From: Faecalicatena sp. Marseille-Q4148
GTDB taxonomy: Bacteria; Bacillota; Clostridia; Lachnospirales; Lachnospiraceae
Direction: 5' to 3'
DNA length: 64,000 nt
NCBI GenBank assembly: GCA_018228665.1
Contig: CP073692.1
Span: 1,054,001 to 1,118,000 of the forward strand
Shown: one piece after another, positions 44,829 to 57,204 of the stretch
Position numbering within the stretch: position 1 is the stretch's first letter
How the letters are laid out: each line of letters begins with the position of its first letter
The notes under the pieces: model-generated
Told to the model about the DNA's origin: nothing
The model's input: the letters and a program-made list of their open reading frames with translations, nothing else
The model's database searches: none
Position numbers and translations under genes: made by a program

Positions 44829-45845
44829 CTACTGCCTTTCTAAAAATTCTCTGACATTTTCTTCTGTTATTTTAATATACGGTAAATAAGTATACTTCTC
44901 CGGATGTACTGTACCGTCACTGATTTCAACTGCAAGATGAGCCATTGCTTCCGCCTGTCCTTCTTTATCATTGTAGACTGTTCCTGCCAGTTCTCCTTCC
45001 AGAAATGCCTGAAGCCCTACATGAGTCCCATCAATCCCGAGAAAGATCGGCCATGTATTTTCTGTGTAATTTGCTCCCTTATAAGCATCAATTGCCCCAA
45101 GCGCCATATCATCATTATTTGCCAGAACAAGTTCAATCTGATTCTGATATTGGCCAATCATCTGCTCCATCCGGTTCTGTGCCTGCGGGCGACTCCAATT
45201 GGCAATCTGATAACTTAATTTTTCCAGCATAATCCCCTGATTTTTCAATGTATCCACTGCATACCCGGTCCGGATAATCGCATCCTGATGCCCTGCCTCT
45301 CCTTCAAGCACGACATACTGTATTTTCCCGTCACCATTTCTGTCAACCTTTTCATTGTTCCGGATAACCTCTGCCGCTAATTCTCCCTGCATAATGCCAG
45401 ACTGCTTTGCCTCAGCTCCCACATAATAGAGACCATCCCACTGCATCAGATCTTCCGCTACCGGTTCTCTGTTAAAAAAAATGATAGGCACGTCATTATC
45501 TCTTGCTAAATCTATAATTTCTGACGGATCTGCACGGTCTACCAGATTGACACACAGCACATCACATCCCATATCAATTAATTCCTTTACCTGATCATCC
45601 TGCGTCCGCTGTGCTCCGGCAGCATCTAATACCGTTACTGTCGTCTCAGATGTTCCCGCCGCTAATTTCAGCTCCTCCCGAAAACTTGACATCATTTCGT
45701 TCAGAAAGGTATCACTCTGATTATAGTAAGTTACTCCGACATGTATCTTCCCTGTCTGTGCTGTCTCACCTGCTTTACAGCCTGACAGGATCTGCATTCC
45801 AAACATAAGCACAGCACAAACTTCCCACACTTTTTTTCGTTTCAT
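44829..45845 (-). CDS. MglB-like galactose/glucose-binding lipoprotein, canonical domain order
   Basis: 338-residue periplasmic-binding-protein type 1 lipoprotein with lipobox ILSGC (Cys23). It keeps the MglB sugar site in normal order: Asp45/Phe47 (YNQSDTFL), Asn125 (FFNREP), His186/Asp188/Arg192 (GEAGHQDAIIRTG), Trp217, Asn243-244 (ANNDDM), Asp272 (GIDG) and Asn292. The calcium loop DRNGDGKIQ is also present (169-177). It is the last gene of a run with a response regulator, a kinase and a membrane-anchored binding protein, and is separate from the mgl transporter genes. It may deliver sugar to the sensor or be a second transport receptor. It is the reference for recognising the permuted MglB at 53699. 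Confidence 0.88.
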   Translation of the reverse strand: MKRKKVWEVCAVLMFGMQILSGCKAGETAQTGKIHVGVTYYNQSDTFLNEMMSSFREELKLAAGTSETTVTVLDAAGAQRTQDDQVKELIDMGCDVLCVNLVDRADPSEIIDLARDNDVPIIFFNREPVAEDLMQWDGLYYVGAEAKQSGIMQGELAAEVIRNNEKVDRNGDGKIQYVVLEGEAGHQDAIIRTGYAVDTLKNQGIMLEKLSYQIANWSRPQAQNRMEQMIGQYQNQIELVLANNDDMALGAIDAYKGANYTENTWPIFLGIDGTHVGLQAFLEGELAGTVYNDKEGQAEAMAHLAVEISDGTVHPEKYTYLPYIKITEENVREFLERQ

Positions 45846-45863
45846 TTTGACACCTCTGTCTTT

Positions 45864-46835
45864 CTACTGACTCATTGTAAAAAGTATTTTCTGGCTCTCC
45901 TTTGTAAACAAACAAGCTCTCCGAAAAACTGTATGCGCAATCCTTCTGCTTTTCATCTCAGGCCAGAACTTCTCCAGTGCCTGTGCCACTTCCTTCAGAC
46001 TTTGATATCCCGCATCAAACTCATCCGGAACAACAAGACATTCTACATTTCTTGTATCCAAGTAATATACTGCCTCTGTCGAATGCCCTATTCCATATAC
46101 GACTGCTCCCCAAAGCTGATTTCCCGCCGCATAGCGTCCTGCTGTTTTCACACTTCTGTCATCCAGTGCAATTACAATATCTACTTTCGGCCAGCTTGTA
46201 AGTGTACCACTGGCTTCTGTAAAGGAGCCTGCCACAGACCAGATGATTTCTCCGTTCGCTTCTTTTATTGCATCTCGAAATCCTTCGTCCCGCCTGCGAA
46301 TTGTCTCCATATCCATTGTTTCGGCCAAAATTCCAATCCGTTTTCCCTGAAGATTTTCATTATAGTCTTTCAGAAGTTCCTTAGCAAGATTCTGTCCCAT
46401 TTCATAATTATCCGGTTCTGTTACCGCCCATTCTTTCTTTTCACTGTCTTTCGAAGAAATAGATTCCAGCAGCATGATCGGGATATTTTTTCTAACCTGT
46501 GTCACCGCCGACTCTGCTTTGGCTCCGGCTGCCGGCTGCACAATTAAGGCATCGGCTCCGTTTTTTAATTCCGTCTCAATCATCTGCCTCTGCTTCTTAG
46601 CCGTGGAACCGCTTTCCATATTTACGATCGTAACTTCCACTCCAAAATCTTCCCCGGCAGTTTTCAGTCCATACTTTGCAGATGCCCACCGGCTGTCGTC
46701 TGCATTCTGCAGGATTACAGACACTTTATTCCGCTTCTGCTCGCCTTTTCCAAGCAGCATACTTACCGCAAGCACCGCTGCCAGCAGCCCCAATATCATT
46801 TCCGTTATAATAAATCCTTTTTTCCCACTTACCAT
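45864..46835 (-). CDS. Membrane-anchored sugar-binding sensor protein (XylFII-like)
   Basis: 323 residues with a single N-terminal membrane anchor (about 9-28) and no lipobox cysteine, followed by a periplasmic-binding-protein type 1 fold. Features: VSVILQNADDSRWASAKYGLK, NGADALIVQPAAG, GKRIGILAETMDMETIRRR, and DIVIALDDRSVKTAGRYAAGN. It lies 8 bp after a YesM/LytS-type kinase gene. By analogy with XylFII, which presents sugar to the LytS kinase in Clostridium beijerinckii, it is probably the extracellular ligand-sensing subunit of this kinase. The ligand is likely a hexose, judged only from its neighbours. Confidence 0.8.
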   Translation of the reverse strand: MVSGKKGFIITEMILGLLAAVLAVSMLLGKGEQKRNKVSVILQNADDSRWASAKYGLKTAGEDFGVEVTIVNMESGSTAKKQRQMIETELKNGADALIVQPAAGAKAESAVTQVRKNIPIMLLESISSKDSEKKEWAVTEPDNYEMGQNLAKELLKDYNENLQGKRIGILAETMDMETIRRRDEGFRDAIKEANGEIIWSVAGSFTEASGTLTSWPKVDIVIALDDRSVKTAGRYAAGNQLWGAVVYGIGHSTEAVYYLDTRNVECLVVPDEFDAGYQSLKEVAQALEKFWPEMKSRRIAHTVFRRACLFTKESQKILFTMSQ

Positions 46836-46843
46836 GCTCTCTG

Positions 46844-48688
46844 CTACACTTCCTCATCCATCACATCTTCCTTCCGAAACATATGACCTTTCTCAAGAAT
46901 TTCCCGATTCTCCTCTGTATACGGCACTGCCGGCATTCTGATTGATACAATCGTTCCCTCATCCGGCTCACTCTCCACCTTCAAACCATATTCTTTCCCA
47001 AAAAGTATCTGTATCCGGTTATTGACATTTACGAGTCCGACTCCGGAACCATGTTTGCTGATACGTTCGCCGTCTGTCAATATATGTTCTACTTCTTCCT
47101 CTGCCATTCCGATGCCGTTGTCCTTGACGGAAAGAATAATATCCCTTCCTTTCCGCTCTCCTGCCACAACAATCTCACCGGAATCATCCATTGCTCCTAC
47201 CCCATATGCAATGGCATTTTCCAAAAGCGGCTGTAAAATCAATTTCACTGTACAGTAAGAATACAGCTCTTCTGCTACAGCAAATGTTACGGAAAATGTA
47301 TTTTTGTAACGGATTTTCTGAATATTCATATAACTCTGCGCATGCTGAAGCTCATCCCGGATCGTAATAACTGTACGGCCCTTTGAAAGGCTGATACGGA
47401 AGAACTTTGCCAGCTGCGTAATCATAAAAGAAGCTTCTTCGTTTCGTTCGCCTTCGATCATCCAGGTAATGGATTCCAGCGTATTATACAAAAAATGCGG
47501 GTTAATCTGGCTTTGCAGCGCTGCAAGCTCACTTTTGCGGCGCTCTGTCTGTTCCCACACAATTTCTTTCATTAAGACATCAATCTTCTCATAAAAACTC
47601 TGGATGGAATGTCCCAGATAACGAATCTCGGTAGAACCACCAATATAAATCTCCGGCTTCTTTCCGGTCTCATATTCTCTGACAGAATCACTGAGCTGTA
47701 GAATCGGCCTGGAAATTCTCACAGATACAACACGGTTAATCGTCACAAGCATCATCGCTACAAGAAGCATCAGCATGGCAACAAAATAGCGAATATCAAT
47801 AATTCCATCCGTAAACGTGCTGTCCGGAAGCACCCCGACCAATTTCCAACCGGTATAACTGATTGTATTCACAATTACTTTTCGATTTTCTCCTTCGAAC
47901 TTCTCCTGATAAATCCCTTCTTTATAATCTGCTACTGCCTGATGATTCTCTTTCTGGATTCCATCTCCGATCTGCATCTGTTTTGGATGATAAATAATCT
48001 CTCCATCGCTGTCACAAAGATAAAAATACTGCCCTCCGCTTGATTCATTAATCTGCCGCATCATTCGGGAAATCACAGAATAGTCCATGTCTACGAGAAG
48101 CACCCCTTCCTGGGATCTGCCGTGATCTGTAATTTCAATGGCTCTGCTTAAAGAAATTACCCAATAATAGCGAAAAGAACCATCATCAAAAAGATTCTGA
48201 ACATGCGGATTGGAGAAATGCATATTTTCCTGCTTCTCTGCAGCCTGTCGATACCAGTCCTGCTTCATAACGTCCGGATCTTTTTTTTCTTCCGCCACCG
48301 GTTCCGCTGCCATCAGACGCCCATAACGATTATAAATCGCAATACTTTGCAGATTTTCATCATTCGCTGCATATAACAGATTCATTTTCTGCTGAATTTC
48401 TTTTGTCTCACTGGAAAAATCATTTTCTTTTATTACATTGTAATACAGTGTATCTGAAATCTGACGCATTTTTACAAGATAATCTTCCAGACTTTCTCCG
48501 GTCTGCTCCATGAGCGTTTTTGTACTTTGCACCATTTCCTTTCGAAATACGGTAGAAAAGCGGGAATATAGGATCAGACCGCTTACAAGCAGAAGGGAAA
48601 GAGAAATTCCGGAAAAGATTACCATGATCGTTGACTGTATTCCCCTCGGTTTTAATTTTTTTAATATTCTCGAATAATTATGTTTCAC
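46844..48688 (-). CDS. Sensor histidine kinase (YesM/LytS family)
   Basis: 614-residue membrane kinase. Membrane helices near 17-44 and 300-320 flank a dCache-like extracellular domain, then HAMP. The His_kinase domain has phospho-acceptor His398 in SQINPHFLYNTLES, and the HATPase has ENAIAYGVGA, VKDNGIGM and GSGVGLVNVNNRI. Start choice: the frame opens at 48808 inside the regulator gene. GGAG at 48699-48702 is 10 bp before GTG 48688 but only 1 bp before ATG 48697, so I prefer GTG. It overlaps the regulator stop by 11 bp. Partner of the AraC-type regulator, with the anchored binding protein as likely input. Confidence 0.88.
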   Translation of the reverse strand: MKHNYSRILKKLKPRGIQSTIMVIFSGISLSLLLVSGLILYSRFSTVFRKEMVQSTKTLMEQTGESLEDYLVKMRQISDTLYYNVIKENDFSSETKEIQQKMNLLYAANDENLQSIAIYNRYGRLMAAEPVAEEKKDPDVMKQDWYRQAAEKQENMHFSNPHVQNLFDDGSFRYYWVISLSRAIEITDHGRSQEGVLLVDMDYSVISRMMRQINESSGGQYFYLCDSDGEIIYHPKQMQIGDGIQKENHQAVADYKEGIYQEKFEGENRKVIVNTISYTGWKLVGVLPDSTFTDGIIDIRYFVAMLMLLVAMMLVTINRVVSVRISRPILQLSDSVREYETGKKPEIYIGGSTEIRYLGHSIQSFYEKIDVLMKEIVWEQTERRKSELAALQSQINPHFLYNTLESITWMIEGERNEEASFMITQLAKFFRISLSKGRTVITIRDELQHAQSYMNIQKIRYKNTFSVTFAVAEELYSYCTVKLILQPLLENAIAYGVGAMDDSGEIVVAGERKGRDIILSVKDNGIGMAEEEVEHILTDGERISKHGSGVGLVNVNNRIQILFGKEYGLKVESEPDEGTIVSIRMPAVPYTEENREILEKGHMFRKEDVMDEEV

Positions 48689-50291
48689 GCTCTGCATACT
48701 CCGTTCTATATTTGGAAGGAGACGTTCCAAATTGTCGTTTAAATACATAGCTGAAATAATTCGGATCGGTATATCCAACCTTTTTCCCAATAATATAACT
48801 CTTTTCATCCGATTCTATCAGCATCTCCGCCGCCTTCTCCATGCGGTATTCTGTCAGATATCCAATGAAAGAATTTCCTGTTTCCTTCTTAAAAATTGTT
48901 GAGAAATAAGAATTGGACACACCTAGCTTCCTGCATATTAAATCCAGTGAAAGGGTTTCGTCTCCATAATGGTTTTCTACATATTCTTTTGCCTTTGCCA
49001 CAAAAGACTTTGTGGAATTGCTCCGTGCATTTGTCAATTTTTCATGTAATGACAGACTGATCTGTACGAGCCATTTACGAAATGTCTCTGGCTCCATATC
49101 GAGAATCCGCCCATATAATGAACGCATATCCCCCGCAAATTCCTCCATTACAATATCATTTTGCGATGAAAAACGATATAATTCACTGACCAGTTCCATT
49201 ACAACAATATAATGCTGCTGCAGCGTCCTGTTCCGCACTGCAATCTGATCCAAATACTGATCCACTGCCCCGCTGATTTCTTCCTCCGTTCCAAGCCGAA
49301 TCATTTTAAATAAATGTGTAAAAACTTCTGTGTCTGTTCCGGTCTCTTTCTCACTCATTTCTCTCGGCGCAATCTCTTTCATATTGATCGCTCTGTTCGC
49401 TCCGTAAATGGCTCTGTACGATACAGCTTCTCTCGCACTGCTGTAAGACTGCGACAATTCCAGCATATTGCTGCATACAAAACCAACTCCAACTGTGACA
49501 ACTGCTCCCATTATCCGCTTCACATATCGGCAAAAGCGATCGCACTCATCTGTCAGACGGGATACTTCCTGCTCTGTCGAAAGCTGTGCGATCAGAACTG
49601 TATTATTCAGATAAGAAAAACACTTTCCTCTCCAGGCTTCTGCCAGGCGCTCCACTGCCTGTTTCTGTACTGCCGTAAATAAGAGCAATGGATTCACGCC
49701 ATCGGGGATTCGGCTGGACGATGTATGGATTACAAGACAGCAATAAAAAGGACCTTCCATCGTAATCTGATAATCTTTAAGATATTTCGGAAGATCTTCC
49801 TGCTGAATCCTCCCCTCGATCAATGTAGAATAAAAATTCACCTGCAATAACGGCAATGATTCCAGATAATAATTCTGCAGAACTTCCACATTACGTTTTT
49901 CGCTGATTTCCTGGTCTAATTTCTGTTTTAAATGCGAAAACACATTGGTCAGTTCCACAGAATTTACCGGCTTTAGAAGATACTCTTCCACTTCCAGATG
50001 TACAGCTTCTTTCGCATATTCAAATTCATCAAATCCTGTGAAAATCAAAAGCTTCGTTGCCGGAAATTCCTCTTTAATCCGGTGCGCCAGCTCCATTCCA
50101 TCTACATAAGGCATCTTTATATCCGTCATTACCACGTCCGGCTGATATTCTTCCACCATTTCAAATGCCTTCACTCCATTATTCGCATAACCGATCACAG
50201 AAAAGCCAAGACCTTCCCAATCTATTTTTTTCATAATGACCTGAATTACCTCTTCCTCGTCATCTACAAGAAGCACTGTGTATTTTTCCAT
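48678..50291 (-). CDS. AraC-type response regulator (YesN family)
   Basis: 537 residues. The N-terminal receiver has Asp10/Asp11, phospho-acceptor Asp57 (MTDIKMP), Thr85 and Lys107. A long central region (about 130-420) of the YesN type follows, with a C-terminal pair of AraC helix-turn-helices: LSLDLICRKLGVSNSYFSTIFKKE, shortened here, and YIIGKKVGYTDPNYFSYVFKR. Its likely target is the mglBAC operon upstream, whose promoter has a -10 but no good -35, as expected for an activator-dependent promoter. First gene of the sensing operon. A -10 TATAAT lies about 35 bp before the start. Confidence 0.9.
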   Translation of the reverse strand: MEKYTVLLVDDEEEVIQVIMKKIDWEGLGFSVIGYANNGVKAFEMVEEYQPDVVMTDIKMPYVDGMELAHRIKEEFPATKLLIFTGFDEFEYAKEAVHLEVEEYLLKPVNSVELTNVFSHLKQKLDQEISEKRNVEVLQNYYLESLPLLQVNFYSTLIEGRIQQEDLPKYLKDYQITMEGPFYCCLVIHTSSSRIPDGVNPLLLFTAVQKQAVERLAEAWRGKCFSYLNNTVLIAQLSTEQEVSRLTDECDRFCRYVKRIMGAVVTVGVGFVCSNMLELSQSYSSAREAVSYRAIYGANRAINMKEIAPREMSEKETGTDTEVFTHLFKMIRLGTEEEISGAVDQYLDQIAVRNRTLQQHYIVVMELVSELYRFSSQNDIVMEEFAGDMRSLYGRILDMEPETFRKWLVQISLSLHEKLTNARSNSTKSFVAKAKEYVENHYGDETLSLDLICRKLGVSNSYFSTIFKKETGNSFIGYLTEYRMEKAAEMLIESDEKSYIIGKKVGYTDPNYFSYVFKRQFGTSPSKYRTEYAERET

Positions 50292-50408: not shown

Positions 50409-52064
50409 TTATTTTTTCTGAACGTATTTCAGACAGTCAAGTGTTACTGCCACAAGGATAATGATACCTGAGAATACGAACTGAAGGTTTGTATCAATAC
50501 CGAGGATTGTAAGAGAGTATGTAAGTGCTGTAAAGATAAATACACCAACTACTACACCTGAAATCTTACCAATACCACCTGTGAAAGATACTCCGCCAAC
50601 TACACAGGCTGCGATGGCATCCATCTCCCATCCCTGTCCGTAAGCTGCTGATCCTGAACCAACCATTCTCATACACTCTAACCAGGAACCAAATCCATAC
50701 AGAACACCTGCAAGCATAAATGCACCAACAGTTACCCAGAATACAGAAATACCAGAAACAGCTGCCGCTTCCGGGTTACCTCCGACTGCGTACAGATTCT
50801 TACCAAAGCTTGTTTTATTCCAAATGAACCATACGATTGCAATAGCTGCTACTGCCCAGAGAATGATTGTCGGGAATCCATTGACTCTAGGAATTACCAT
50901 ATTTGGAATTGTCGGCTCAATTGCACCGAAAGATACACCTTTTGTTGCATAAGTAATGAGACCAAAGATTACAAGCATGTTCGCCATTGTTGAAATAAAT
51001 GGATGCATTTTAAACTTCGCTGTAAAGAAACCGGCAATTGTTGTAAAGAATGTACAAAGTACAACACATACGACAAGAGCCAGAATCATTCTTGCACCGA
51101 TAGACATCTTCGTAAAATCAAAAATATGTCCAAATACAGAACCTGTATTCACTCCCTGATGCATGATAATTGTTGCTGTTGTCATACCCATACCTACCAT
51201 ACGTCCGATGGAAAGGTCAGTACCTGCAAGAAGGATCAGACCGGCAACACCAAGTGCAAGGAACATTCGAGGAGATGCCTGCTGAAGTATGTTAAGTACG
51301 TTATTGTATGTCAGAAGCGGAGCTCCTTTGATAATCGGTGTGATGATACATAATGCAATAAAGATTAAAATAATTGCAATATACAATCCATTCTGCAATA
51401 AGAATGATCTTCTGTTGAATGTATACTTGTAGTTTTCCCATTTCTGTGCTCTTGTCTCAAGAAATGTAAACTTAGACATACGCAGCAAATCAATTAAATG
51501 GAACTTAAAATTATATGCGGCATGTCTTCTGTCTTTGATTTCCTGAAGATTTTTCTGATACTGAAGTTTCGCATCAAACAGACGGTTTTTATATACATAA
51601 TTCTCGTCTTTAATCTCCTGGTGATCTTTTAATTTAGAAGCAAGTTCCTGATGTTCTTTCTCAAGTTCTGCTACTTTTAAGCGGTATTTTTCTTTTGCTG
51701 CAACTTTTTCCTGAGCACAGCTTGCTGCGACTGCCTGATAATAATCCTTATCAAAATGTGCTTTCAGATAATTTTCTGCCTCTGAAATTAATTTTGCAAC
51801 CTCAGCCTTATGTTTGGATTCTACTGCTTTTGCCTGTTCCAATTCTTTGTGTGCAGCAGCAATTCTGTGTTCGCGTTCTTCTTTTGTCAGGCTCTTATCT
51901 CTTTTCATGGTATCAATGGCATTCTGCATTGCAACCACTTTATCTGTACCGTCTGCTCTGAGACCGTCAATCTTTGCCTGAATCTTACCGATATGATCCT
52001 CGATCGGCCTGCGCAGTTCTAATTCCTGCTCTGCCGTAAGAATCTTATTGTTTTCATTAGCCAT
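50409..52064 (-). CDS. mglC: Galactose/glucose ABC permease MglC with a long N-terminal helical extension
   Basis: Membrane channel of the MglBAC importer, 551 residues against about 336 in E. coli MglC. The permease core (from about 215) is conserved: LALGVAGLILLAGTDLSIGR, FGKNLYAVGGNPEAAAVSGI and DAIAACVVGGVSFTGGIGKI. Residues 1-210 are an added hydrophilic, Lys/Glu/Ala-rich segment with heptad character, predicted cytoplasmic. It includes AQEKVAAKEKYRLKVAELEK and similar helices. The ATG at 52064 has GGGAG 9 bp upstream; the ATG at 52082, abutting the mglA stop, is less likely. Co-transcribed with mglB and mglA. Confidence 0.9.
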   Translation of the reverse strand: MANENNKILTAEQELELRRPIEDHIGKIQAKIDGLRADGTDKVVAMQNAIDTMKRDKSLTKEEREHRIAAAHKELEQAKAVESKHKAEVAKLISEAENYLKAHFDKDYYQAVAASCAQEKVAAKEKYRLKVAELEKEHQELASKLKDHQEIKDENYVYKNRLFDAKLQYQKNLQEIKDRRHAAYNFKFHLIDLLRMSKFTFLETRAQKWENYKYTFNRRSFLLQNGLYIAIILIFIALCIITPIIKGAPLLTYNNVLNILQQASPRMFLALGVAGLILLAGTDLSIGRMVGMGMTTATIIMHQGVNTGSVFGHIFDFTKMSIGARMILALVVCVVLCTFFTTIAGFFTAKFKMHPFISTMANMLVIFGLITYATKGVSFGAIEPTIPNMVIPRVNGFPTIILWAVAAIAIVWFIWNKTSFGKNLYAVGGNPEAAAVSGISVFWVTVGAFMLAGVLYGFGSWLECMRMVGSGSAAYGQGWEMDAIAACVVGGVSFTGGIGKISGVVVGVFIFTALTYSLTILGIDTNLQFVFSGIIILVAVTLDCLKYVQKK

Positions 52065-52082
52065 AACTTCAATCTCCCTCAT

Positions 52083-53591
52083 TTATAGGTATTTTGCACT
52101 GAGTCTTAAAAGCTCTTCCTGATTTGTCTCTTTTGTATTTACGATTCCGGAGAGGTGTCCATTGGACATGACTCCGATACGGTTAGTAATTCCGAGGATC
52201 TCCGGCATTTCAGAAGAAACAACAATAATTGTCTTACCCTGTTTTGCCATGTTAATGATCAGTTCGTAAATCTCATACTTAGCACCGACATCGATACCTC
52301 TTGTCGGCTCATCCATCATAAATACCTGTGGATCTCTCTCCAGCCATTTACCAAAGATAACCTTCTGCTGATTACCACCGGAGAGGCTGGCAATCATATC
52401 ATCCGGTCCCATACACTTTGTATGCATAATCCGAATTTCATCTGCAGTTGCCTTTACCATCTTAGCTTCTGAAAGAGCAATTCCTGATTTATAATGATTC
52501 AAATTGGCAATCGTCGTATTAAACGTTAAGTCCTCTTTTAAGAACAGACCATTTGCTTTACGCTCTTCCGTAATCATTGCAAATCCATGATCCATTGCTT
52601 CTTTTGCACTGGTAAAGTTCATCAGATGTCCATTGAAATATACTCGTCCGGCCGCTCTTGTCCGTACTCCGAAAATCGTTTCCAGAAGCTCTGTTCGACC
52701 AGCTCCCACAAGTCCATACAGACCAAAAATCTCACCTTTTCTAACATCAAATGAAATATCCTGTAAATGTGGTTCAAATTTCGTTGATAAATGCTGAATC
52801 GACAGTACAACGTCCTGTGGCTGATTATCTACCGGCGGGAAACGATTTTCAAGAGAACGTCCTACCATCGCAGCAATCAGCTCATTCATATTTGTCTCCT
52901 GAGTACTCTTTGTCATAACAAGATTACCATCGCGGAGAACAGATACTTCATCACAGATTTTAAAAATCTCGTCCATCTTATGAGAAATGTAGATCAAAGC
53001 AATTCCCTGCTCTTTTAACATATTCATCATTTCAAACAGTTTATCAACTTCCTGGACGGTCAGGGATGATGTTGGCTCATCAAGAACGATTACTTTTGAA
53101 TTATAAGAAATTGCTTTCGCAATCTCACACATCTGACGCTGTGATACAGACATATTCCGCATCGGCTGTGTCAGGTTCACTGTCATTCCAAGCTTTCTGA
53201 ACAATTCAGAAGCCTCTTTTTTCATTCGTCCTTCATCAACGATTCCCAGAGAATTTACCGGATAACGTCCAAGAAATAAATTGTCAACTACATTTCGCTC
53301 CAGACACTGGTTCAGCTCCTGATGAACCATCGCAATACCATTCTCAAGGGCATCTTTCGGTCCGGAAAAACTCACTTCTTTTCCATCAAGGAAAATATTA
53401 CCTTCATCTTTCTGATATGTTCCGAACAGGCACTTCATCATTGTAGATTTTCCTGCACCGTTCTCCCCCATAAGTCCCATGACTGTTCCGCGTTTTACAT
53501 TCAGATTGATATGATCAAGAACACGGTTACGTCCAAAGGATTTGCTCATGCCGCATATCGATAAGATGATATCATCTTTCTTATCTGCCAT
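52083..53591 (-). CDS. mglA: Galactose/glucose ABC importer ATPase MglA
   Basis: 502-residue tandem ABC ATPase of the sugar-importer (CUT2) type. The first domain has GENGAGKSTMM, signature VSQRQMCEIAKAI and VLDEPTSSLT. The second has the degenerate P-loop GLVGAGRTEL typical of this family, LSGGNQQKVIFGKWL and MDEPTRGIDVGAKYE. Energises uptake through MglC. Lies 107 bp after mglB, with a stable hairpin between them; directly followed by mglC. Confidence 0.94.
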   Translation of the reverse strand: MADKKDDIILSICGMSKSFGRNRVLDHINLNVKRGTVMGLMGENGAGKSTMMKCLFGTYQKDEGNIFLDGKEVSFSGPKDALENGIAMVHQELNQCLERNVVDNLFLGRYPVNSLGIVDEGRMKKEASELFRKLGMTVNLTQPMRNMSVSQRQMCEIAKAISYNSKVIVLDEPTSSLTVQEVDKLFEMMNMLKEQGIALIYISHKMDEIFKICDEVSVLRDGNLVMTKSTQETNMNELIAAMVGRSLENRFPPVDNQPQDVVLSIQHLSTKFEPHLQDISFDVRKGEIFGLYGLVGAGRTELLETIFGVRTRAAGRVYFNGHLMNFTSAKEAMDHGFAMITEERKANGLFLKEDLTFNTTIANLNHYKSGIALSEAKMVKATADEIRIMHTKCMGPDDMIASLSGGNQQKVIFGKWLERDPQVFMMDEPTRGIDVGAKYEIYELIINMAKQGKTIIVVSSEMPEILGITNRIGVMSNGHLSGIVNTKETNQEELLRLSAKYL

Positions 53592-53698: not shown

Positions 53699-54982
53699 TT
53701 ACTGATTCAGTAAGGATGTGTAAGAAGCTGCGTTGTCTGTCTTAACCATGTTGATTGCGAATGCATCATACTGTCCAGGGTTTCCAAGACGGTTTGTGAT
53801 ATTAGATTCTGTCTGGCCATCTCCACCGATGTACTCAACTTCAAGGTTAAGAAGTTTATCATAGTTCTGAAGCAATGGCTGATATGTAGAACTTAAGAAG
53901 TTGTCTGCTGCATTGTAGATGTTAAGCCATACTTTCTTAGTAGGGTTTTTCTCTTTATCAAGCTGATTAGAAACCGGCTCGTAGATCTTTGTAGAATCTG
54001 TAAAGTCCTGATAGTTATCTGCTGTTACAGCTACGTTTAATGCATAGTAAGAACGTTCTTCTTCTCTGTATACATAAACATCATCTGAAAGAACATTTCC
54101 TGCTTCATCTTCTGTACCGATACCTGTGTCAATGTCTACACCATCAAGTGCGTTACGAAGAACACGAAGTGTTAAGTAAGCCTGAACGTCTGCATGCTGG
54201 CTGATTGTTCCGCCGTATCCTTCTGCGATTGCTGCAACTGCGTCGCTGTTTGCATCGTATCCGAATGTCGGTACCTTATTGTCTTTTGACCATGCATTAA
54301 ACATTGACATTCCCATACCATCGTTGTTAGATGCAACTACATCGATCTGATCTCCAAAAGAAGATGACCATGTTCCGATAGAGTTACCTGCTGTTGCTGC
54401 ATCCCATGTAGAACCTGCAGAGTTCTTCATTTCCTGAGAAGCAAGTTCACGAACAACATATTTCTTTCCGTTTACTTCCAATTCTCCGTCTTTAACTGCT
54501 TTTGCAGATCCGTCTGTGTTTGTACCGATCGGATCACTGTTGATGTTTCCATCTTTTTCCACTGCTGTTCCAAGAGCTTTACGAACACCTCTTGTACGAG
54601 CAATAGAGTCATTGTGTCCAATATCACCGATTGCAAGTACATATCCGATTACACCATCGCCGTTACGGTCAATCTTATCAATGTTTGCCTCGATATAATC
54701 TTTAACCATTGTTCCCTGAAGCTCAGCACCCTGATTTGCATCAAATCCTACATAATATGTATCTTTATTGAAGTTCAGCGCTGTCTTGTCCAACTCTCCT
54801 GTAGAACTGTTAGATGGCTGACGGTTAAACCATACTAATGGTTTGTCTTTGTTAGCAACTTCTGATGTTTTTGCTTCACCTTTTTTATCTCCTCCGTCAG
54901 AAGTGTCTCCGCCCGAACCACAAGCTGTAGCTGATACAGCTAATGCTGCTGCCATCATTAATAACGCAATTCTCTTTTTCAT
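53699..54982 (-). CDS. mglB: Circularly permuted galactose/glucose-binding lipoprotein MglB
   Basis: 427-residue lipoprotein (signal 1-20, lipobox ATAC, Cys21), first gene of mglBAC. The MglB fold is rotated. Residues 47-328 match canonical MglB from its second third to its end: WFNRQP (Asn53), YYVG, calcium loop DRNGDG (105-110), GHNDSIARTRG (His123, Asp125, Arg129), Trp193, SNNDGM (Asn219-220) and GYDA (Asp243). After a linker (about 329-349), residues 350-427 match the canonical first third: IYNAADNFLSSTYQP (Asp360, Phe362) and FAINMVKTDNAASY. The tail ends exactly where residue 47 would continue. All sugar ligands remain except one Asn replaced by Gln262. An extra segment (about 141-182) is inserted. 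ATG 54982 has GGAGAT upstream. Confidence 0.93.
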   Translation of the reverse strand: MKKRIALLMMAAALAVSATACGSGGDTSDGGDKKGEAKTSEVANKDKPLVWFNRQPSNSSTGELDKTALNFNKDTYYVGFDANQGAELQGTMVKDYIEANIDKIDRNGDGVIGYVLAIGDIGHNDSIARTRGVRKALGTAVEKDGNINSDPIGTNTDGSAKAVKDGELEVNGKKYVVRELASQEMKNSAGSTWDAATAGNSIGTWSSSFGDQIDVVASNNDGMGMSMFNAWSKDNKVPTFGYDANSDAVAAIAEGYGGTISQHADVQAYLTLRVLRNALDGVDIDTGIGTEDEAGNVLSDDVYVYREEERSYYALNVAVTADNYQDFTDSTKIYEPVSNQLDKEKNPTKKVWLNIYNAADNFLSSTYQPLLQNYDKLLNLEVEYIGGDGQTESNITNRLGNPGQYDAFAINMVKTDNAASYTSLLNQ

Positions 54983-55230: not shown

Positions 55231-57204
55231 CTATAACAGTCCTCCGATTGCAACAAATAACGGTGCAAATACTAAGGAGATGATTGTCATAAGTTTGATC
55301 AGGATATTGATAGAAGGTCCTGAAGTATCTTTGAACGGGTCACCTACTGTATCTCCAACAACACCCGCTTTATGAACTTCACTACCCTTTCCGCCGTAAT
55401 TTCCTGCTTCAATGTATTTCTTAGCATTATCCCAGGCTCCACCTGAGTTACTCAGGAAAATTGCAAGAAGAACACCTGTAACAAGTGCGCCTGCAAGAAG
55501 TCCGCCAAGTGCATCCGCACCTAACACGATACCTGTAAGGATCGGAACAACAACTGCAATCACACCCGGTTTGATCATTTCTCTTAAAGCAGCTTTTGTA
55601 GAAATATCTACACATGCTGTGTAATCCGGTTTTCCTTTTCCTTCCATGATTCCCGGAATTGTACGGAACTGTCTTCTTACTTCTTCGATCATGCTGTAAG
55701 CAGCTTTCGAAACAGAATCCATTGTCCATGCTGAGAACAGGAATGGAAGCATACCACCAACAAATAAACCGATGATAACACGCGCATTTAAAATATCAAT
55801 ATTCTTAAGTCCAACTGTAGATGCATATGATACAAACAGAGATAATGCTGTCAGAGCAGCAGATCCGATAGCGAATCCTTTACCCATAGCTGCTGTTGTA
55901 TTACCAACTGCATCAAGCTTATCTGTAATCTGTCTTACGGAATGATCAAGACCTGACATCTCAGCGATACCGCCGGCATTGTCAGCGATCGGACCGTAAG
56001 CATCAACTGCAACTGTAATACCTGTTGTAGAAAGCATACCTACTGCTGCAAGAGCAATTCCGTATACTCCAAAGCACTGATATGCAATAAAAATACCAAC
56101 ACCGATGAATAAAATCGGAGCGCATGTAGACTGCATACCTACAGAAATACCACTGATGATTGTTGTTGCAGGGCCTGTCTGAGACTGTTCTGCAATTCTC
56201 TTTACGAAACGATACTCATCAGATGTGTAAACCTCTGTAATAAATCCGATCAGGATACCAACGATCAGACCGGCAATGATTGCCATAGCTGCATTGAAGT
56301 TTCCAAAGAACAGCTTACTCATTACAAGAGAAGCAATAATTACAATGACACCAGATACATATGTACCCATCTTTAATGCGGAATGTGGGTTTTTCTTCTC
56401 GTCTCCACGTACGAAGAAGCATCCGATGATTGATGCAAGTACACCGATTGCCGCCAACATCAGCGGGAAGAATGCTCCCTCTGCTTTATAAGAAAGAACA
56501 CCAAGTGTTACTGCTGAAACAATCGCACCAACATAAGATTCAAACAGGTCTGCTCCCATACCCGCAACGTCACCTACGTTATCACCTACATTGTCTGCGA
56601 TAACTGCCGGGTTACGCGGATCATCTTCCGGAATTCCGGATTCTACTTTACCAACAAGGTCTGCTCCAACGTCTGCTGCTTTTGTATAGATACCTCCACC
56701 TACACGAGCAAACAGCGCAATTGAAGATGCACCTAAGCTGAAGCCTGACAGTACAGATACATCTCCTGTAATAACATAGATTACTGTACATCCAAATAAG
56801 CCAAGTCCAACTACACACATACCCATAACTGCACCGCCTTTAAAGGCAATTGCAAGGGCACTAACCATACCGCCTTTTCTTGCGGCATTTGCTGTTCTAA
56901 CGTTCGCACTAGTAGCTACATTCATTCCGACATAGCCGGCTGCTACTGAGAACAATGCTCCGACAACAAAGCAGATTGCTGTCACCCAGTTCTGAAGTCC
57001 CAGGCCGATCAGGACAAAAAGAACGAGTACGAACACGACCAGCACACGATACTCTGCAAATAAGAATGCTTTTGCGCCTTCTTTAATTGCAGAAGAGATT
57101 TCTTTCATTCTGTCTGTTCCAACTTCCTGTTTCCCTACACTGCTTGCAAGGTAAGCTGCGAAGAGGAGTGCCAGAATTCCGACAATCGCTGCAAAATAGT
57201 TCAT
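55231..57204 (-). CDS. hppA: Membrane-bound ion-translocating pyrophosphatase
   Basis: Couples hydrolysis of pyrophosphate to export of Na+ or H+. 657 residues with about 16 helices. The substrate-site motifs DDPRNPAVIADNVGDNVGD, ADNAGGIAEMSGL and GDTVGDPFKDTSGPS are intact. GNTTAAMGKG carries Ala rather than Lys at the potassium-determinant position, so the enzyme belongs to the K+-dependent class, which includes Na+ pumps. Monocistronic, with its promoter overlapped by a 27-bp palindrome. GGAGGAAATGTA precedes the ATG. Confidence 0.93.
   Translation of the reverse strand: MNYFAAIVGILALLFAAYLASSVGKQEVGTDRMKEISSAIKEGAKAFLFAEYRVLVVFVLVLFVLIGLGLQNWVTAICFVVGALFSVAAGYVGMNVATSANVRTANAARKGGMVSALAIAFKGGAVMGMCVVGLGLFGCTVIYVITGDVSVLSGFSLGASSIALFARVGGGIYTKAADVGADLVGKVESGIPEDDPRNPAVIADNVGDNVGDVAGMGADLFESYVGAIVSAVTLGVLSYKAEGAFFPLMLAAIGVLASIIGCFFVRGDEKKNPHSALKMGTYVSGVIVIIASLVMSKLFFGNFNAAMAIIAGLIVGILIGFITEVYTSDEYRFVKRIAEQSQTGPATTIISGISVGMQSTCAPILFIGVGIFIAYQCFGVYGIALAAVGMLSTTGITVAVDAYGPIADNAGGIAEMSGLDHSVRQITDKLDAVGNTTAAMGKGFAIGSAALTALSLFVSYASTVGLKNIDILNARVIIGLFVGGMLPFLFSAWTMDSVSKAAYSMIEEVRRQFRTIPGIMEGKGKPDYTACVDISTKAALREMIKPGVIAVVVPILTGIVLGADALGGLLAGALVTGVLLAIFLSNSGGAWDNAKKYIEAGNYGGKGSEVHKAGVVGDTVGDPFKDTSGPSINILIKLMTIISLVFAPLFVAIGGLL

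Follow-up and report, generated by a model that had tools for sequence, protein, structure and literature searches.

A predicted circularly permuted MglB-type sugar-binding lipoprotein and its transporter neighbours in Faecalicatena sp. Marseille-Q4148

The window, a stretch of 64,000 nucleotides of Faecalicatena sp. Marseille-Q4148 (GCA_018228665.1, contig CP073692.1, positions 1,054,001 to 1,118,000), contains a gene, P0001, for a predicted sugar-binding lipoprotein in which the elements of the galactose-binding protein MglB stand in rotated order. What forms the first third of canonical MglB has its counterpart at the C-terminus (the "cap"), and the chain likely adopts the usual two-lobed clamp fold. 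It is very probable, taking all lines together, that P0001 is a permuted MglB of the same type as TpMglB-2 ("Type Ic") that would serve sugar import, would have arisen by duplication, and would coexist with a canonical copy engaged in sensing. A first-pass annotation had recognized a natural circular permutant, and its reading of the open reading frame (ORF), coordinates and motifs was accurate when the sequence was re-read. It also stated that it knew of no described permuted MglB, yet one had been described: the circular permutation of TpMglB-2 (Tp0684) of a spirochaete was reported, together with the crystal structure PDB 5JX2, in 2016 (PMC4990184). The permutation has thus been known since 2016, and P0001 adds one more member to a published family. 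New here are the origin of the cap, tandem forms of MglB, the pairing with an extended MglC, the loose link to lipidation, and a case of a lone permuted MglB.

In a phmmer search, residues 44–425 of P0001 matched residues 19–385 of 5jx2 (E 1.3e-91), with 46% identity over the full length and the same permuted order. Pfam analysis of P0001 revealed positions 93–256 of the Peripla_BP_4 profile at residues 72–281, followed by PF18610 (Peripla_BP_7) at residues 348–418, while P0002, a canonical-order MglB homologue encoded in the same window, matched Peripla_BP_4 positions 1–256 in the normal order. The NCBIfam MglB model NF011924 gave 90.1 bits in two stretches for P0001 and 239 bits in one stretch for P0002. 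This model requires more than 420 bits over the whole protein in linear order, and P0001, which judging from its sequence would work like MglB, nevertheless falls outside the equivalog.

Both segments of the chain were aligned to Escherichia coli MglB (EcMglB) with hhalign. The profile of residues 44–343 matched EcMglB 107–331 (E 4.8e-39), and that of residues 344–427 matched EcMglB 24–103 (E 2.5e-6, score 42.2, probability 88.8, 22% identity). A rotation scan against canonical MglB gave a score of 261.8 for the uncut chain (E. coli residues 106–331) and a maximum of 306.9 with the cut at 330–336 (E. coli residues 21–331); the score remained above 305 up to a cut at 350. By both methods, the C-terminal segment corresponds to the start of the canonical N-lobe, as in TpMglB-2. 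The annotation had stated that this segment stops exactly where the N-terminal one begins; the junction is real but exact only to about 3 residues, since EcMglB 104–106 are left uncovered between the two matches. Similarly, the two offset diagonals that it expected are seen in the profile comparisons with EcMglB, but BLASTP of P0001 against P0002 yielded a single significant diagonal (46–274 to 118–308). The second was a 10-residue match (E 1.7) among chance matches, and therefore profiles are needed to see it. In the predicted fold, both termini lie in one lobe, and the cap completes the sheet of that lobe.

The alignment of permuted proteins comprised 215 distinct sequences, namely 95 genome-locus rows (window included) and 120 rows from a search with a treponemal sequence, the best 120 of 2642 matches, of which the named ones belong to Treponema. 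The genome-locus rows are termed Gram-positive, with one metagenome-assembled genome (L030) among them labelled Bacteroidales. In all, the homologue searches used the best 120 of 7996, 2642 and 4951 matches. An artefact of assembly or a misread frame as the source of the rotated order has virtually no probability and is refuted, since the same order occurs in all 215 rows, in isolate genomes among the 80 named loci, and in the crystal structure. Nothing was found in its favour, although two longer relatives, P0004 and P0007, do contain exact internal repeats and were set aside as probable misassemblies.

Whether the moved segment originates from MglB was left undecided in PMC4990184, where TpMglB-2 and EcMglB share only 13% identity over this part and acquisition of the segment from elsewhere is considered possible. 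According to that alternative, the C-terminal 80 residues stem from another gene and took over, by convergence, the part played by the N-terminal third of MglB. The profile evidence indicates that the cap instead derives from the same family, specifically from the N-terminal third of MglB. Its score of 42.2 against MglB 24–103 compares with a maximum of 20.7 for 30 column shuffles, 12.1 for the reversed alignment, 13.4 for the RbsB-like binding protein SBP2, and 11.1–15.1 for the profiles of MglA, MglC, the kinase and the regulator. With hmmsearch, the cap profile scored at best 21.0 in the sensor-type set of canonical MglBs and 16.3 in the transport-type set, while SBP2 reached 5.1 and 69 other ORFs 4.0. 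Moreover, Asp360 and Phe362 of the cap correspond to the sugar contacts Asp14 and Phe16 of EcMglB. Several points weigh against this derivation and the fold. The cap match comes from a pairwise profile comparison, with the probability and identity given above, and with the cap model the scores of individual canonical sequences are mostly low (medians of 3.5 and 3.8 bits), so the single-sequence signal is weak; together with the missing BLASTP diagonal, this agrees with acquisition from another gene. Of the five AlphaFold models, four had a mean predicted local distance difference test value of 50–55, and the AlphaFold training set may have included 5JX2. On balance, acquisition of a foreign cap is quite improbable, and the profile evidence answers the question of an MglB origin in the affirmative.

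The ten sugar contacts, defined according to PMC4990184, are D360, F362, N53, H123, D125, R129, W193, N219, D243 and Q262 in P0001, and each of them is invariant in all 95 genome-locus rows. Nine are the same as in E. coli, while EcN256 is replaced by Gln262, as in Tp0684; this last residue was missing from the list of the first-pass annotation, whose claim of a conserved sugar site otherwise holds at the sequence level. Retention of the site in P0001 is thus supported. We infer sugar binding and transport by analogy with the 46%-identical TpMglB-2, which was crystallized and assayed. P0001 would likely bind extracellular glucose or galactose and pass the sugar on to the neighbouring MglA–MglC importer.

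The rotated order could have arisen through duplication and deletion, as the annotation had proposed. An MglB gene would have been duplicated in tandem and in frame. Copy 1 would then have lost its first third, located behind the signal peptide, and copy 2 everything except its first third. The natural C-terminus of copy 1 would thereby be joined via a linker of about 17 residues to the natural N-terminus of copy 2. Permutation by duplication predicts tandem and partly tandem intermediates (PMC3320104). Such forms were found: the isolate genome of Hungatella hathewayi WAL-18680 (G006) encodes both a permuted MglB (L077) and a 553-aa protein (L156:1336-2994, plus strand) in which a complete canonical MglB precedes a second N-terminal third plus a remnant. 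Denoting the N-terminal third as N and the rest as R, the best 120 of 4951 matches to the L156 protein, which is not an exhaustive count, included the following arrangements. N-R-N-R was present in P0244–P0253 and P0255 (the second R being incomplete in P0255), with the N-thirds of the two copies 85–96% identical. N-R-N was found in L156/P0243, where the second N-third scored 73.7 bits and the copies in P0243 are 61% identical, and a degenerate second N-third (23–31% identity, 8.5–14.9 bits) was recognized in P0274, P0275, P0277 and P0280. All these proteins have signal-like N-termini by eye. Because the tandem copies differ, an assembly artefact is unlikely, but many of these proteins stem from metagenomes, and the pairs with 95–96% identity are less safe. 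P0254 was dropped as an R-N-R intermediate, being a fragment that starts inside the protein and has no signal peptide, and P0263 (N-R-R) and P0290 (no second N-third above 8 bits) were also excluded.

The other of the two main permutation models (PMC3320104) is fission and fusion, in which MglB would have been split into two genes that were later re-fused in reverse order. Possible fusion partners exist, since two adjacent MglB genes are present in the canonical loci L188, L189, L192 and L200, but so do fused tandem and partly tandem MglBs, and this route appears unlikely.

The duplication route also meets several objections. The tandem MglBs resemble another lineage (the second N-third of L156 is 60% identical to L186), so they are parallels rather than ancestors, and the route is open without being proven to be the one taken by P0001. 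The lineage sister to the permuted clade yielded no duplication intermediate, and the identity of that sister is itself uncertain. In the MglB tree, for which 99 of 106 canonical rows were retained (N-R/K-x-P-type motif), the sister was L167 with a support of 98/86, but the join was flagged as a long-branch one, its stem measuring about 2 changes per column, and the bootstrap is unsettled. The MglA tree joined E. coli to the permuted clade (94/90) rather than the MglA adjacent to L167. Homology of the cap, together with the tandem and partly tandem proteins, therefore supports the duplication-and-deletion origin indirectly, and the parallel lineage leaves it unproven for the permuted clade. 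The tandem and partly tandem forms make the duplication route testable with natural members of a sugar-binding family, MglB.

The annotation had also noted that the lipid anchor is attached at a different point on the fold. This applies to P0001 (Cys21) but not to the permuted proteins as a whole. Using rough lipobox patterns, a lipobox was detected in 88 of the 95 genome-locus rows and in 119 of the 120 treponemal-query rows, the remaining protein, P0189, being incomplete at its start. The seven genome-locus proteins without a lipobox (L004, L017, L049, L050, L052, L073 and L091) have signal peptides lacking the lipidation Cys, with signal-peptidase-I-like sites by eye. Among canonical proteins, a lipobox-like motif is present in 17 of 20 transport-type rows (18 with a looser pattern), E. 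coli being without it, and in 42 of 86 sensor-set rows (58 with the looser pattern). Membrane tethering was suggested in PMC4990184 as a possible reason for the permutation, with selection having favoured a lipid anchor displaced from two sugar contacts. The prevalence of the lipobox among permuted proteins agrees with this idea, but the unlipidated permuted proteins and the lipidated canonical ones, P0002 among them, argue that anchoring neither requires the permutation nor is required by it. Selection for tethering is accordingly an unlikely driver.

A divergent lone permuted MglB (55% identity) was found in one genome (G883, L225, 11639–15027, minus strand), just downstream of genes for a membrane HD-domain protein and a GGDEF protein (domains by eye), which look like enzymes of cyclic di-GMP (c-di-GMP) metabolism. 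No match to MglA or MglC was detected on this 18-kb stretch, and the best match to the extended MglC in G883 covered part of a 400-aa frame at 35% identity. The counterpart of EcMglB Asp154 in the L225 protein is apparently Ile. Its position in this one genome suggests a possible role as sugar sensor in c-di-GMP signalling.

The features of P0001 and the neighbouring genes are listed in Table 1.

Table 1. Predicted features of the permuted mglB gene and its surroundings in the window
Feature	Coordinates	Strand	Basis or remark
Permuted MglB P0001, 427-aa predicted sugar-binding lipoprotein	53699..54982	-	ORF, Pfam, phmmer, hhalign, rotation scan; start ATG at 54982 with a GGAGG-like site in front
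Signal peptide, lipobox-like ATAC, putative lipidation Cys21 (from motif)	54920..54982	-	sequence, motif count
P0001 residues 46-329, canonical MglB from ligand-Asn strand to C-terminus (EcMglB 107-331)	53996..54847	-	hhalign, rotation scan
Calcium-loop motif DRNGDG, P0001 residues 105-110	54653..54670	-	sequence, conservation
P0001 linker, residues 330-346, old C-terminus to old N-terminus	53945..53995	-	hhalign, rotation scan
P0001 C-terminal cap, residues 347-427, canonical MglB N-terminal third (EcMglB 24-103); PF18610	53702..53944	-	Pfam, profiles
ORF, 657 aa, directly upstream of permuted gene	55231-57204	-	
MglA, sugar ABC (ATP-binding cassette) ATPase, in clade of MglAs beside permuted MglBs	52083..53591	-	
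MglC permease with N-terminal extension, 557 aa	50409..52082	-	
MglC N-terminal extension, about residues 1-222	51417..52082	-	alignment with canonical MglCs
Response regulator, Response_reg and AraC-type helix-turn-helix	48678..50291	-	
dCache_1 histidine kinase	46844..48808	-	ORF overlaps regulator end; true start may lie further in
SBP2, second Peripla_BP_4 binding protein adjoining kinase	45864..46835	-	
P0002, canonical-order MglB homologue, lipobox LSGC	44829..45845	-	

The permuted gene is accompanied by transporter genes. A genome scan was evaluated for the best 80 of 554 confirmed permuted-MglB loci, and a closely related MglA frame adjoins the permuted gene in all 80. MglC had a length of 508–563 aa in 72 of 72 intact, uncut frames; this count omits eight loci with split frames (L018, L048), contig-end cuts (L039, L059) or no MglC (L017, L055 and L057, which end early, and L034, with a short MglA frame). 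In 17 loci drawn from samples of the family and the phylum, all 16 readable MglCs were 549–568 aa long, and in another small set 3 of 3 were extended, both sets overlapping partly with the 80-locus genomes. Conversely, MglCs of canonical MglB transporters were 327–410 aa long in 19 of 19 loci (E. coli, 336 aa), not counting L201, a stretch without a transporter. The N-terminal extension was found in none of 20 canonical MglCs, which align from residue 211–265 of the window MglC onward; two of 409–410 aa carry a different N-terminal addition. As the annotation had asked, an extended MglC thus accompanies the permuted MglB wherever, in the loci examined, an intact MglC frame adjoins it, but the lone L225 protein has no MglC. 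The permuted MglBs form one clade in the trees, and so do their MglAs, which means that the MglB/MglC pairing reflects a single linked history rather than many independent cases. The extended MglC is a concrete partner of the permuted MglB to test. The length of the treponemal MglC (TP0686) was not found in the literature on it. The extension, about 222 residues of charged character, shows lower conservation than the membrane part. L012, L032, L044, L047 and L071 have MglCs with an overall length of 508–516 aa.

Downstream of the transporter genes, the stretch 44829–50291 (minus strand) encodes the regulator, dCache kinase, SBP2 and canonical MglB, likely a sugar-sensing system with two binding proteins. 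From its position next to the histidine kinase gene, the lipoprotein P0002 is likely the sensor subunit, and the two-component system would likely control the transporter. A terminator-like hairpin (50394–50365) is located between mglC and the regulator gene, one of 4 such sites versus 2.7 expected, and the transporter and sensor genes therefore need not share a transcript, a point against the overall reading. The regulator–kinase pair lies downstream of the permuted transporter in 56 of the 80 loci, only upstream in 8, and in neither position in 16, many of which are short contigs; a canonical-order MglB is present on 53. A more distant set of kinase and binding protein was located upstream, not downstream, in L064, L074, L076, L077 and L079. 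Regulator, kinase, SBP2 and canonical MglB also follow the canonical transporter in 6 of 20 canonical loci (L182–L187). Since this cluster order is shared, the permuted MglB, MglA and extended MglC look like a module, and the cluster also occurs with canonical MglB. The ORF directly upstream of the permuted gene may encode a membrane pyrophosphatase, which its product resembles.

These observations permit a broader but tentative view, to which we give somewhat less than even credence: Lachnospiraceae-type MglBs may preserve the permutation route (N-R, N-R-N-R, N-R-N, R-N). The permuted protein would then be more than a product of drift: together with its own MglA and an extended MglC it would form a transporter module placed in the sensor-kinase cluster where other genomes have a canonical transporter, and in one case it would have been recruited singly, next to c-di-GMP genes, probably for sugar sensing.

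The distribution of PF18610 is patchy. Around the [Ruminococcus] torques genome (G001, locus L003), counted as the centre genome each time, it occurs in 17 of 150 genomes at family level and 16 of 58 at genus level, in 4 of 391 at class level and in 2 of 398 at phylum level. For G005 the count at family level was 4 of 12, and 0 of 14 control genomes had it. None of 22 genomes with the permuted form had a canonical MglB match of at least 300 bits, and 18 of them had a canonical-order match of 217–255 bits. Matches to canonical MglB above 300 bits came from 7 of the 199 genomes sampled in the phylum and 2 of the 150 sampled in the family. No permuted carrier was among them; these counts are too small to prove exclusion. 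A scan of viral contigs with P0240, a treponemal-query match, revealed no relative. The permuted type has been reported in treponemes and in numerous Gram-positive bacteria, gut commensals in many cases, and the name "Type Ic" was proposed for it (PMC4990184); "Cluster Bc" ligand-binding proteins is a further label. Within the literature covered on permuted and tandem binding proteins, Tp0684 and PF18610, which excludes most subscription journals, only this paper describes a permuted MglB in its title or abstract.

XylFII-LytS combines a two-component sensor with a binding protein that serves it, and P0002 and SBP2 likewise adjoin a kinase and regulator. CuaD, also described as a binding protein serving a two-component sensor, would offer the same parallel, which bears on the neighbours and not on P0001. 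The PF18610 model covers the cap alone, and the profiles indicate homology of the cap to the N-terminal third of MglB. Canonical MglB (E. coli b2150; NF011924) shares with P0001 the sugar-site residues, the fold elements and the MglBAC gene order, but the P0001 chain is rotated and 427 rather than 332 aa long, and the permuted form has a fourth lobe crossing and a linker, an extra connection, as described for TpMglB-2 (PMC4990184). The closest known relative is TpMglB-2 (5JX2, 6BGC, 6BGD), for which glucose binding, a conformational change upon binding and Ca2+ in the crystal were reported (PMC4990184). P0001 has the same permutation, the same sugar and calcium site residues and a predicted lipid anchor. 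It differs in having Asp360 at the position of EcMglB Asp14, occupied by Asn in Tp0684 (Asn was found in 1 of the 120 treponemal-query rows), and in its longer insert and longer linker. The gene of P0001 itself is set among genes for a two-component system, a canonical MglB and an MglC with the N-terminal extension.
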